A DNA stretch of 64,000 bases from Sphingobium herbicidovorans (GTDB lineage Bacteria; Pseudomonadota; Alphaproteobacteria; Sphingomonadales; Sphingomonadaceae): the NCBI RefSeq assembly GCF_002080435.1, contig NZ_CP020538.1, positions 2,847,501-2,911,500 on the forward strand, given 5' to 3'. Shown in pieces: positions 1,562-6,095 of the stretch; within the stretch, counting starts at the first letter, position 1; each line of letters opens with the position of its first letter. The position numbers were made by a program, and so were the translations under genes. Under the pieces are notes generated by a model, which saw nothing but the letters and a program-made list of their open reading frames with translations, searched no databases and was not told the origin of the DNA.

Positions 1562-3337
1562 ATGACATTACCCCAATGGCTTTCAGTCGCCACCCTGGCC
1601 GGGATGATGGCGCTCTTTCTTTGGGGTCGTTTCCGTTACGATGTGACCGCGGTCATTGCGCTGCTTGCGGCACTGCTCATCGGTGTCGTCAAGCCGGAAG
1701 ACGCCTTCAAGGGCTTTGCCGACGATATCGTCATTATTGTCGGCTCTGCGCTTGTTATCTCTGCCGCTGTGCGGCGATCGGGGGCCATCGAGATCGCCTT
1801 GGGTTTTCTGTCCGGGCGGGTGAAAAGCGTTCGGTCACAGCTTCTCGTGCTGACCGGATCGGTGGGCGTTTCATCCGCGCTGGTCAAGAATGTGGGAGCG
1901 TTGGCGATGCTGATGCCCGCCGCTTTCCAGATGGCGAAGAAGAACGGAGCCAATCCATCGGTTTTCCTGATGCCCATGTCCTTCGCATCGCTGTTGGGCG
2001 GGTTGATGACCCTTGTTGGCACGTCCCCCAATATCATCGTCAGCCGCGTGCGCGAGGAGATGACCGGCGAGCCATTTGGGATGTTCGACTATTTTCCGAC
2101 CGGTTTCGGCTTGCTGCTGGTCGGGCTTATTTTCCTGCGCTTTGGATACCGGCTGCTTCCTCGCGACCGTCGCGCGGCGCCGACCATGGGGGAGGCGCTC
2201 AACATTTCCGGTTATGTCACGGAAGCGTCCGTGTCGGAAGATTCCGAGGCGATTGGCGAGACGATCGCGGAGTTCACGGAGCGTCATGACAACCAGATCG
2301 CGGTGATGAGCCTGCTGCGCGGTGACATGCAGGGCACGGTCCACCCCAACGTCCATCTGCGGCAGGACGATATATTGATCCTCTCCGGTGAGCCTGACGC
2401 GCTGGAGCGGGTGATCGCCCGCGACCGCCTTTCGCTCACCGGGGAAGGCAAGGCGATGGCCGAGGGGCATGAGGGAGACGAGATCGGCGTGATAGAGGCG
2501 GTGGTCACGACGGATTCCGCGCTGATCGGCCGAACGGCTGGCCGCCTGTTACTTCGCGAGCGTTTTGGCGTGAACCTGATCGCCATATCGCGGGCGGGCG
2601 AACATCTTACCCGCAAGATTGGCCAGATCGTGCTTCAGGCGGGCGATGTCATCGTCATGCAAGGGCCGGTCGCCTTGCTGCCTGATCGCCTGCGCCAACT
2701 CGGCGCATTGCCGCTAGCGGCGCGGGAAATGCAGCTGGGCAAATCGAAACGTGGATGGCTCCCCATCCTGGTTCTCGCCACCGCCATGATCGCCACGGCG
2801 ACTGGTGTAGTTCCTGTTGCGGTGGCTTTCTTTGCTGCGGCCGGGGTGGTTGTCATTGCTGGCGCGCTGCCGGTGGGCGAGGCCTATGAGGCTGTGGAGT
2901 GGCCGATCCTCATCATGTTGGCCGCGCTGATCCCGCTCAGCGAAAGCCTGCAAACAACAGGTGCATCGGATGTGATCGCAACGGGGCTTGCGCGTGCTGC
3001 GACGATGTTGCCGGCCTGGGGTGCTGTCGCGTTGATCCTGGTAGCGGCCATGGCGGTCACGCCGTTCCTCAACAACGCCGCAACCGTTCTGGTAATGGCG
3101 CCCATCGCTGCCGTTTTCGCCAATGACCTGGGATACCGCCCGGAAGCCTTCCTGATCGCGACTGCCATCGGAGCGGGTTGCGATTTCCTCACGCCGATAG
3201 GGCATCAGTGCAACACGCTGGTATTCGGACCTGGCGGCTATCGTTTCAGCGATTACGCCCGTTTGGGCATGCCGCTGTCCCTGATTGTGGTGCTGGTCGG
3301 CACACCGCTCATTTTGTGGACCTGGCCGCTGCGCTGA
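1562..3337 (+). CDS. SLC13-family anion permease with two RCK_C (TrkA-C) domains
   Basis: Predicted sodium-coupled or proton-coupled inner-membrane transporter of the divalent anion symporter family (sulfate, dicarboxylates or similar). The 591 residues show an N-terminal membrane half (about 1-200), two cytosolic RCK_C regulatory domains (about 215-295 and 300-380), and a C-terminal membrane half. Each membrane half carries the substrate-loop signature of the family: LVGTSPNIIV near residue 155 and TPIGHQCNTLVFGPGGY near 545. Conserved asparagines (LVKNVGA; FLNNAATV) are present. The start ATG follows a GAGG ribosome-binding sequence by 4 nt. Proteins of this layout are often labelled sulfate or citrate transporters, but the substrate cannot be assigned here. 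Confidence 0.92.
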   Translation: MTLPQWLSVATLAGMMALFLWGRFRYDVTAVIALLAALLIGVVKPEDAFKGFADDIVIIVGSALVISAAVRRSGAIEIALGFLSGRVKSVRSQLLVLTGSVGVSSALVKNVGALAMLMPAAFQMAKKNGANPSVFLMPMSFASLLGGLMTLVGTSPNIIVSRVREEMTGEPFGMFDYFPTGFGLLLVGLIFLRFGYRLLPRDRRAAPTMGEALNISGYVTEASVSEDSEAIGETIAEFTERHDNQIAVMSLLRGDMQGTVHPNVHLRQDDILILSGEPDALERVIARDRLSLTGEGKAMAEGHEGDEIGVIEAVVTTDSALIGRTAGRLLLRERFGVNLIAISRAGEHLTRKIGQIVLQAGDVIVMQGPVALLPDRLRQLGALPLAAREMQLGKSKRGWLPILVLATAMIATATGVVPVAVAFFAAAGVVVIAGALPVGEAYEAVEWPILIMLAALIPLSESLQTTGASDVIATGLARAATMLPAWGAVALILVAAMAVTPFLNNAATVLVMAPIAAVFANDLGYRPEAFLIATAIGAGCDFLTPIGHQCNTLVFGPGGYRFSDYARLGMPLSLIVVLVGTPLILWTWPLR

Positions 3338-3377
3338 ATTTGACTTCGCAGAGGATCGCGGAGGCGTCGGGCATTAA

Positions 3378-3452
3378 TGGTGACCCCTACGGGAATCGAA
3401 CCCGTGTTTCAGCCGTGAGAGGGCCGCGTCCTGACCGCTAGACGAAGGGGCC
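3378..3452 (-). tRNA. tRNA-Glu (anticodon CTC), CCA encoded
   Basis: The minus strand folds as a complete tRNA of 75 nt including the encoded CCA. The acceptor stem GGCCCCT pairs with AGGGGTC (one G-U pair). The anticodon arm reads CGGCC-CTCTCAC-GGCTG, giving anticodon CTC. The T arm is ACGGGTTCGATTCCCGT. The body closely resembles E. coli tRNA-Glu, including the TTCGTCTAG D-arm start. It decodes GAG, the favoured glutamate codon of this GC-rich genome. No integrase or duplicated tRNA 3' end is visible nearby, so it does not mark an island here. Confidence 0.95.
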
Positions 3453-3539
3453 TTGGCCGCATTGGCGGCTGGCAGGCGGTCGCGTTTAGGAGCGCCGTCG
3501 CTTGCCGTCAAGCGAAACCGCGACCGGATTGAGCCACAT

Positions 3540-3571
3540 AAAAAACCACCCCATGTTTTCACACGGGGTGG
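3540..3571 (-). terminator. Intrinsic terminator of the candidate sRNA
   Basis: On the minus strand CCACCCC pairs with GGGGTGG (7 bp, 12-nt loop) and is followed directly by TTTTTT. This is a textbook Rho-independent terminator and the only strong one between sapC and the tRNA gene. Confidence 0.85.
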
Positions 3572-3650
3572 CCAAGGTTCAGGGAGGAGACGCCTCCAAA
3601 GGGGGAGGCGCCCATACGACACACCCGAAAGGGGGGCAGGTGCGCCGTAT
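3540..3650 (-). ncRNA. Candidate trans-acting small RNA with C-rich loops
   Basis: Minus-strand transcript of about 110 nt predicted from three features. A sigma-70-like promoter lies just upstream. Two internal hairpins follow: CATACG pairs with CGTATG, extended by CACC/GGTG, around a loop containing CCCCCC; then CGCCTCC pairs with GGAGGCG around CCCTTT. Next comes a single-stranded CTCCTCCCTGAACC stretch complementary to Shine-Dalgarno sequences. The transcript ends in an intrinsic terminator. C-rich loops that bind ribosome-binding sites are the hallmark of several alphaproteobacterial sRNAs (for example GsrN of Caulobacter and the cuckoo RNAs of Rhizobiales). I cannot assign this RNA to a named family. 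No plausible protein fits the same stretch. Confidence 0.72.
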
Positions 3651-3656
3651 GTTTGA

Positions 3657-3685
3657 AAGATAAAGAAGGTCTCCGTCACTTTCAA
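3657..3685 (-). promoter_or_regulatory. Sigma-70-type promoter of the candidate sRNA
   Basis: The minus strand reads TTGAAA (-35), a spacer of exactly 17 nt, then TATCTT (-10). This predicts a start near 3650, at the first base of the first hairpin. The agreement of promoter position and RNA structure supports both calls. Confidence 0.65.
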
Positions 3686-3736
3686 GTGGCGAGTGAAAAC
3701 CTTTTCCCTAGCGCGCTGAAAAAGACGATTATTCCG

Positions 3737-4525
3737 TCAGGCCTGGGCCGACTGGGGCGCCTGCGGGACAGAAATAGGGCCTTTGCCCTGTGCGACCTGA
3801 GACTCGAAAACCTCGCGTATCAGTTGCAGGGAGAACAGGTGGGCATGGATCAGGGGCAGCATGCCGTTCTGGCTGATCTTGCGCAGTTGGTCGCCGCGCA
3901 TGTCGCGCAGCTTTTCCTCGTTCACCATGCGGAAGCCGCGATATACGAACGGCTGATCATTGCCAGGAACCTGAATCGCGACCTCGCCATCCATCAGCAG
4001 GTCAAGTTCCTTGAGGTCTTTCATGAACTGGCCGGTACGGGCGGCAGCCTGCTCGAAATCTTCGCAGAATTTGAGAACCCCTTGGGTCAGTTCACTGGGC
4101 TTGCTGTCCTCGAACAGGGGCTGGCCTTCGTCAAATTCGCCGACCGCTTCGCTGGTCGGATCGAAGCAAAGCGACAGTTCGTCGCTGTCGGGGCGCAGCT
4201 TCGCCAGCATCCAGGGGTAGCGGCGAACATAAGCCGGCACATAGGCGGGCCCGCGCAACTTGCCTTCATCGTCGAGGAAGGTGTTGACGCCTTCGTTCAG
4301 GCCCATCAATGCGAGCGGCACGGCCTCGTCGCCTGCGGAAAAGATGATCGGGACGAAGCGCTGAGCCGCGACGAATTCATCGACGGTCAGGGGAACGGCA
4401 TGCTGCTTGGTGAGGAAGGGCGCGGTTTCCACCGTCCGGCTGCGATAGGCCGCATGATCGACGCTGTTGAGCGGCAACAGGTCGTTGTAGAAGACAGGAA
4501 GATTATTCGCGGGCGCGCTAGCCAT
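3737..4525 (-). CDS. SapC family protein
   Basis: Member of the SapC family, named after an S-layer-associated protein of Campylobacter. Its function in alphaproteobacteria is unknown. From the preferred start at 4525 the protein is 262 residues, beginning MASAPANNLPVFYNDLLPLN. An upstream ATG at 4621 would add 32 residues with no family character. Visible family features are the N-terminal FYNDLLPLN block, FVPIIFSAGDEAVPLALMGL and the aromatic PAYVRRYPWML. No signal peptide or membrane helix is seen. It stands alone between a candidate sRNA and the broken oxidase gene. The family call is firm and the role is open. Confidence 0.88.
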   Translation of the reverse strand: MASAPANNLPVFYNDLLPLNSVDHAAYRSRTVETAPFLTKQHAVPLTVDEFVAAQRFVPIIFSAGDEAVPLALMGLNEGVNTFLDDEGKLRGPAYVPAYVRRYPWMLAKLRPDSDELSLCFDPTSEAVGEFDEGQPLFEDSKPSELTQGVLKFCEDFEQAAARTGQFMKDLKELDLLMDGEVAIQVPGNDQPFVYRGFRMVNEEKLRDMRGDQLRKISQNGMLPLIHAHLFSLQLIREVFESQVAQGKGPISVPQAPQSAQA

Positions 4526-4656
4526 GATGCTGTTCCATTCTGTCAAAAGCAGCGCGTGCGTAGGCGCCGCCTTTCCTAAAAACTGGGTCAGGGCGATAAA
4601 GACCTTGGCGAGGCGAGGCAATCGCTTTGTCGGGGCGTGCCGGGCTTCCTTTCGCC

Positions 4657-6095
4657 CTATCCTTCTTCGGGGCGCGGTATCAGCTTGTCCGGGTTCATGA
4701 GGCCTTGCGGGTCGAAAGCAGCCTTGATCGCGCGCAACGCGTGGAGCCGGGCCGGGCTGGCCAGGCGACCCAGTTCAGCGCGCTTCATCTGTCCAATGCC
4801 ATGCTCTGCTGAAATGGAACCACCGACGGCGACGACCGCGTCATGCACGAAGGCGTTGATCGATTGGCCGTCCGTGGCGATCCAGTTTGGACCGTCGAGC
4901 GTGCCTTTGGGCGCCCGGACATGGAAGTGAACATTCCCATCGCCCAAATGCCCGAATGATGACGCGGTCGTACCGGGGAAGGCGCGTTCCGCAGCTGCGG
5001 CCGCATCGATCATGAAGGTGGGCATTCGCGCTACGGGCACGCTGATGTCAAATTGGAGGGCCGGACCTTGCGCGCGTTCGGATTCAGACAGCGATTCGCG
5101 GATCCGCCAGAAGGCCGATGCTTGCGCATCATTGGCGGCGATCGCGGCATCCACCGCGAGGTTTTTGTCCATTGCCTGTGCAAGTGCATCTTCAAGCCGC
5201 TCCGCCGGGCCGGGATCGGACAAGTCGGCATGATCCACTTCTATCAGCACGTGCCAGGGGGTTCGCGTCTCAATGGGGCATCGGGTGCCGGGAATGTGGG
5301 AAAGCACATGACCCAGTCCATCGTCGGCGATAATCTCGAACGCCTCTACGCTGTCGCCCAGGCGCGCCTCTGCCAGGCGGAGCAGCGCCAGCGCGTCGGC
5401 GGGGGTGCGGACACCCACCCAACCGACGGCGCGGGCGGAGATGGCCGGAACGAGGCGCAGTGAGGCCGCGGTGATGATGCCGAGCGTTCCTTCCGCGCCG
5501 ATCAGCAATTGCTTGATGTCATAGCCTCGGTTGTCCTTCTTGAGCGCGTCCAGCCCCTGGAAAATGCTGCCATCGGGCAGGACGGCCTCAATCCCTTCGA
5601 CGAGCGCTCGCATGGTGCCGTGACGCAAGACCTGAGTACCACCAGCGTTTGTGGATATCAGTCCGCCGATCGTCGCAGAGCCCTTGGCGCCGAGGCTGAG
5701 CGGGAAACGGCGTCCGGCTTTTTCGGCTGCATCATGCAACGTCGCCAGGATGACGCCCGCTTCGCATATGGCGAGATTGTCGTCGGGTGAGAGGGCGTGA
5801 ATGCGGTTCATCCGGCGCAGTGAGAGAATGAGCGCCGACCCATCGGGGGAGGAGTTGCGCCACCGACCATCGACGTATTTCCGCCCTGCGGCACAAGTGG
5901 AATTCCAAGCTGGCCGGCAAGGGTGACCGCCGCTGCGACCTTTTCTGTACTGTCGGGCTGCAGGATGGCGGGCGACGCGCCGTGGAATCGGCCGCGCCAA
6001 TCGGTAAGCCAGGGCGCGATGTCGTCCGGTTCCGTTACGACACCCTTGGGCCCCAGCAGCGCCACGAAACGATCTATGATCTCTTGTCCTATCAT
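4657..6095 (-). pseudogene. FAD-linked oxidase (D-2-hydroxyacid dehydrogenase type), frameshifted
   Basis: Two minus-strand reading frames together encode one flavoprotein of the GlcD/D-lactate dehydrogenase family, which oxidises 2-hydroxy acids with FAD. The N-terminal part starts at 6095 (MIGQEIIDRF) and reaches the FAD-binding block VPQGGNTSMVGGATP. The rest continues in another frame from DGSALILSLRRMN and carries LIGAEGTLGIIT, the FAD-oxidase C domain and the C-terminal SAEHGIGQMKRAEL signature. The switch lies at a run of five G (plus strand 5845-5849). Adding one base would give a single 479-codon gene, the normal family length. There is no other damage, so this is either a very recent inactivation or a sequence error. 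The substrate is not determinable. Confidence 0.85.

Follow-up and report, generated by a model that had tools for sequence, protein, structure and literature searches.

Which kind of RNA, if any, is made from the minus strand between sapC and a tRNA-Glu gene of Sphingobium herbicidovorans? For this place in the window (the whole 64,000-nucleotide stretch of DNA that was analysed) a sequence-only reading had proposed an undescribed regulator with two C-rich-loop hairpins and an anti-Shine-Dalgarno (anti-SD) stretch. We best read it, with a probability of about 0.8, as an aR8-type (Rfam suhB/mmgR) trans-acting sRNA of ~110 nt and as the Sphingomonadaceae ortholog of these RNAs.

Architecture and conservation of the locus

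The layout of the ~110-nt sRNA lies on the minus strand at about 3685–3540 and consists of a promoter, two hairpins, the exposed CCUCCCUGAACC and a terminator (Table 1), with hairpin borders that move by one or two bases between the two fold predictions. The stretch 3535–3655 is predicted to fold with -64.6 kcal/mol compared to a mean of -37.7 (sd 3.6) for dinucleotide shuffles (z -7.5), and 0 of 200 shuffles were as good. In the predicted fold of CUCCUCCCUGAACC (3589–3576) the first two bases are mostly paired and the last 12 are 0.88–1.00 unpaired.

Table 1. Features of the sRNA locus and its neighbours (positions in the window).
Feature	Position	Strand	Basis or remark
sapC (PF07277)	3737..4621	-	same-strand upstream neighbour, conserved in relatives
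-35 element TTGAAA	3680..3685	-	17 nt spacer to -10; conserved in relatives
-10 element TATCTT	3657..3662	-	start inferred about 3652-3650, sequence only
Transcript (inferred extent)	about 3651 to about 3540	-	sequence only
Hairpin 1	about 3614..3650	-	loop CCCCCCUUU 3636-3628, C-rich; predicted fold and covariation
Hairpin 2	about 3588..3613	-	loop CCCUUU; predicted fold and covariation
Anti-SD seed UCUCCUCCCUGAACC	3576..3590	-	predicted fold, alignment, RF00519 match
Intrinsic terminator	stem 3573-3544, T run to 3538	-	terminator call, fold, alignment
tRNA-Glu(CTC)	3378..3452	-	downstream neighbour, ~90 nt past terminator

A DNA search of 249 Sphingomonadaceae genomes (own genome included) gave matches in 170, and the own locus was aligned without structure with the 29 best of these 170 DNA matches (alignment A1). 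Each of the 30 loci alone folds to a similar three-hairpin layout, with variations, and CCUCCCUGAACC is invariant in all of them and lies mostly outside the stems; as A1 was chosen by DNA similarity and the database loci described below by an exact 20-base pattern, the conservation of the core in both is partly by construction. Changes on both sides were found in 17 of 26 consensus pairs compared to 11.5 in shuffles, 94.3% of the cells are paired, against 83.1% in shuffles and no more than 48.6% in slid versions, and covariation scores 0.445 compared to 0.225 in shuffles and 0.125 at best in slid versions, where the comparison to the slid versions favours the consensus structure because it was derived from the same alignment. 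All consensus pairs of hairpin 1 (6/6, with 84.3% of cells paired) and of hairpin 2 (7/7, with 93.7%) have changed on both sides. The proposed layout from promoter to terminator, including the anti-SD stretch with a core unpaired here, is thus borne out by the fold and its recurrence in 30 loci, and the changes follow base pairing with gaps that do not come in threes, in agreement with a non-coding region. Judged from these comparisons, the RNA is real and widely conserved in Sphingomonadaceae.

When relatives were folded with the same program (79 of 80 kept, as L114 is incomplete at one end), the 12-base core was wholly unpaired in 42/79 and had at least 9 of its 12 bases unpaired in 51/79, so that in many relatives some of its bases are predicted to pair. 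Loop 1 carries CCC in 72 of the 79 relatives, while loop 2 does so in 10 and the loop sequence of hairpin 2 is not conserved. From the two C-rich loops put forward in the sequence-only reading the first therefore stands and the second does not. Its comparison to the cuckoo RNAs (CcsR), which have two stem-loops with conserved C-rich loops, falls with the second loop, and a cuckoo-type double C-loop RNA was rejected on the same count. Outside Sphingomonadaceae CCC occurs in loop 1 of 5 of the 25 scorable loci, a count omitting 7/32 loci for which less than two hairpins were predicted upstream of the core; three of these seven show CCC by eye, giving 8/32 with the dropped rows added.

The promoter is the sole sigma-70-type site in 2400–4800, where 0.6 (sd 0.9) are expected by chance. 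As a single-site match is no better than chance, the promoter call rests on conservation. The -35 element is exactly TTGAAA in 15 of the 30 loci, TTGCAA in 5 and another TTG hexamer in 10, and the -10 element is exactly TATCTT in 10/30, similar in most others and weak in some (L016, L035). A pair made of a TTG hexamer and, 16–18 nt further on, a TATCTT-like hexamer is located 58–70 nt upstream of the core in 30/30 loci, a count that leans on the script reporting the best pair for every locus. A genome-wide sigma-factor test gave no further site, as CTTGAAA-N16-18-TATCTT was found once, at the sRNA alone.

At E<=0.01 the covariance model R1 of this RNA found a match in 242 of the order's 296 genomes, with lower scores outside the family, and across the class it found matches, mostly weak ones, in 66 of 190 genomes. 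It recovered 80/80 database loci tested, one of them incomplete (80 from at least 120 found by pattern), and the matched records include Sphingomonas, Sphingobium, Novosphingobium, Erythrobacter, Qipengyuania, Croceicoccus and Rhizorhabdus. For the stretch from the sRNA to sapC the five best matches show 79–84% identity, four of them being Sphingobium records. In its own genome R1 detects the sRNA at the window locus only.

Relation to the aR8 and suhB RNAs

The Rfam family RF00519 (suhB/mmgR) matches the RNA over its full length (77 positions) with 36.2 bits, the cut-off being 41, and hairpin 2 corresponds to the 5' hairpin of the model in the alignment. As 36.2 bits are below 41 the RNA does not count as a member of RF00519, and calling it an aR8 ortholog rests on other traits. 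The aR8 RNAs carry UUUCCUCCCU after a hairpin, plus a terminator (PMC12559287). The core UCUCCUCCCU here equals 9 of the 10 positions of this published 10-mer, and the Rho-independent terminator, an aR8 trait, is present. Among 80 relatives UUUCCUCCCU is exact in 6, with one mismatch in 29, two in 42 and three in 3, its last seven bases being fixed by the search pattern; 28 of the 32 R1 loci outside the family have it exactly.

An RF00519 scan of 20 Sphingomonadaceae relatives listed 16 at 26.8–38.8 bits and left 4 unlisted, with none over the cut-off, while of the 20 R1 loci scanned in other families or orders 18 reach 41 bits (L100 exactly 41; L072 and L083 are below). By these scans the RNA is continuous with the RF00519 RNAs of other Alphaproteobacteria and sub-threshold in Sphingomonadaceae. 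The full-length match, the 18 outside loci at the cut-off and the N-formylglutamate amidohydrolase (FGase) neighbour in relatives speak against the claim that this regulator is undescribed as a kind. It is most plausibly a divergent representative of a known kind and not a new kind of RNA, and what sets it apart is a score below the RF00519 cut-off together with the C-rich first loop. No published account of the window RNA was found among the papers listed by the literature searches, which covered subscription papers only in part.

With SisA-D of Caulobacter crescentus (PMC12559287) the RNA shares the hairpin, the CCUCCCU core, the Rho-independent terminator and, in most sphingomonad relatives, the FGase neighbour. 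It differs by the 9/10 core, the conserved C-rich loop in the first hairpin, the sapC neighbour and the sub-threshold Rfam score, and its core is at about position 61–70 of the RNA, compared to G33–C45 in SisA. MmgR of Sinorhizobium meliloti, an aR8 RNA of 77 nt (PMC7143759), has the full-length covariance match in common, whereas the ~110-nt RNA described here has an extra 5' hairpin outside the 77-position model and scores below 41. The ar14 (RF02344) and AbcR/ar15 RNAs likewise have anti-SD motifs and several hairpins. ar14 was rejected (22.9 bits, cut-off 58.8), as was 6C RNA (27 bits, cut-off 47), and ar15 gave no match among the Rfam hits listed for the RNA.

Six other loci of the own genome (L002–L007, on three replicons) pass the RF00519 cut-off, and so by Rfam's rule these six, rather than the window RNA, are suhB members. 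The own-genome scan used E<=10, a level at which 14 control genomes give weak hits as well, and the hits used were those over the cut-off and L009 (28.1 bits); locus set A2, with reverse-strand terminator matches, was excluded from all counts. The six copies and the weaker L009 share GGCATCCTCTCC(T/C)AA without UUUCCUCCCU, and neither sapC nor FGase was found at these seven other suhB loci of the own genome. RF00519 is over the cut-off in 46 of 59 family genomes, and the places of the window RNA recognised there (own, G011, G029, G043, G046, G050, G053, G057) are all below it. L002–L007 also share GGCATCCTCTCCTAA, and by eye an ATTGCA...TGCAAT-like palindrome stands upstream of most of them, perhaps as a common operator. 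At L228 (G000:C1:2636200-2636271, minus strand) a CU-rich TTCCTCTCCTCCCT directly precedes a strong terminator; with 23 bits for RF00519, far below the cut-off, this is possibly a further small RNA.

The alternative that survives best, although we consider it unlikely, is a separate Sphingomonadaceae sRNA family that looks aR8-like since anti-SD stretches and terminators evolve easily. It would explain why no listed relative reaches the RF00519 cut-off and six other loci of the own genome do, why R1 matches none of the six suhB copies nor L009 at E<=1, and why loop 1 differs between the groups. However, the string CCUCCCU-RAAC-YUKGGCC is common to many loci inside and outside the family and extends past the anti-SD core, R1 also detects RNAs of the RF00519 type in further families and orders, and the FGase neighbour is in common (19/32 outside loci). 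Going beyond the preferred aR8 assignment, we offer a tentative scenario with the odds somewhat against it: the FGase-linked aR8 RNA would have become a two-seed regulator that kept CCUCCCU and gained a conserved C-rich loop seed, and suhB copies with the altered core GGCAUCCUCUCCUAA would have assumed some of the original role and carry the database suhB label.

Gene neighbourhood

In most species one aR8 copy adjoins an FGase gene, for example Caulobacter SisA (PMC12559287). This trait is present in the relatives and absent at the locus of the own genome. Among 51 distinct family genomes, the own one not counted, FGase is located beside the RNA in 41, usually with a response-regulator gene beyond, and sapC was found no more than 1.5 kb away in 27 of 29 relatives and in 47 of the 51 distinct genomes after adding 22, some flanks ending at contig ends (L059). 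Among the 120 database loci listed, FGase is within 1.5 kb in 108, both genes in 92 and neither in 1. Where the record extends 2.5 kb or more to either side of the database locus (40 loci), FGase is found in 40/40 and sapC in 35/40, four Sphingobium records being outside this subset; near the RNA in the four listed Sphingobium records FGase was not found. At the 32 loci outside the family sapC was not found (0/32). In the window's genome the FGase link is broken, because both FGase-family genes sit elsewhere, the nearer about 437 kb off and still beside a response-regulator gene. Such a pair of FGase and response regulator, without sapC within the flank, was observed in this genome at L224 (G000:C1:2413834). 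In the record of L149, which bears the title Actinobacteria bacterium 21-64-8, the sphingomonad sRNA is present next to sapC and FGase, and for this reason the title looks wrong for the contig.

The constancy of sapC on the same strand (within 1.5 kb in 103 of the 120 listed loci) would also fit a processed 3'-UTR fragment of the sapC mRNA with no gene of its own, yet this is very improbable, as a promoter-like site is located directly before hairpin 1 in 30 loci and the RNA stays in some relatives where sapC is about 650–880 nt off or was not found in the flank. The RNA had also been expected to keep its structure between sapC and tRNA-Glu in sphingomonad genomes: covariation was found and sapC is kept, whereas tRNA-Glu stands next to the RNA in only 2 of 29 relatives. 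Thus a leader or attenuator of tRNA-Glu, as the gene beginning about 90 nt past the terminator could suggest, has next to no probability, all the more since the terminator is strong and conserved and FGase occupies that side in most relatives. The 103-aa minus-strand open frame at 3685–3374 is hardly a short coding gene, as the changes track base pairing, alignment gaps are not in threes and the frame crosses terminator and tRNA.

Predicted action and meaning

SisA represses mRNAs by pairing via UUUCCUCCCU, and the sponge CrfA counteracts it in a pairing helped by Hfq (PMC12559287). As the RNA described here has UCUCCUCCCU, ends in poly-U and belongs to a genome encoding Hfq, we infer the same mode of action: it probably covers ribosome-binding sites and switches off mRNAs. 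With the aid of Hfq its CCUCCCU would pair with a group of mRNAs at their Shine-Dalgarno regions and lower their expression, and by analogy to Caulobacter SisA and S. meliloti MmgR this repression would be part of a circuit linked to the status of carbon or nutrients. The C-rich loop 1 may serve as a second pairing site in Sphingomonadaceae. The adjoining Hfq-domain matches L039 and L040 (G000:C1:369588-370013; 107.8 and 86.8 bits) both fall in open frames of 168 aa and evidently form one predicted tandem-domain Hfq.

A genome-wide search for exact seed complements gave no convincing target. The complement AGGGAGGAGA has 5 sites in the genome compared to 2 for the reversed control, one being opposite the sRNA itself and one opposite another CU-rich terminator; two of the three others have an ATG 16–18 nt downstream, with frames of 120 and 123 aa.

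The Rfam name is shared by SuhB of Sphingopyxis granuli TFA, a sphingomonad sRNA of 61 nt that binds the thnR 5' UTR with Hfq (PMC6563040). Judged by this description, SuhB of TFA may be the counterpart of the suhB copies over the cut-off and not of the window RNA. Taken together, the results suggest that in sphingomonads the Rfam label 'suhB' is attached to other loci, whereas the copy in the customary aR8 place has no label. The RNA can be compared directly with the circuit of SisA and CrfA in carbon-starved Caulobacter and represents a conserved regulator in a bacterial family known for pollutant degradation, in which few sRNAs such as SuhB of TFA have been characterised in the literature searched.
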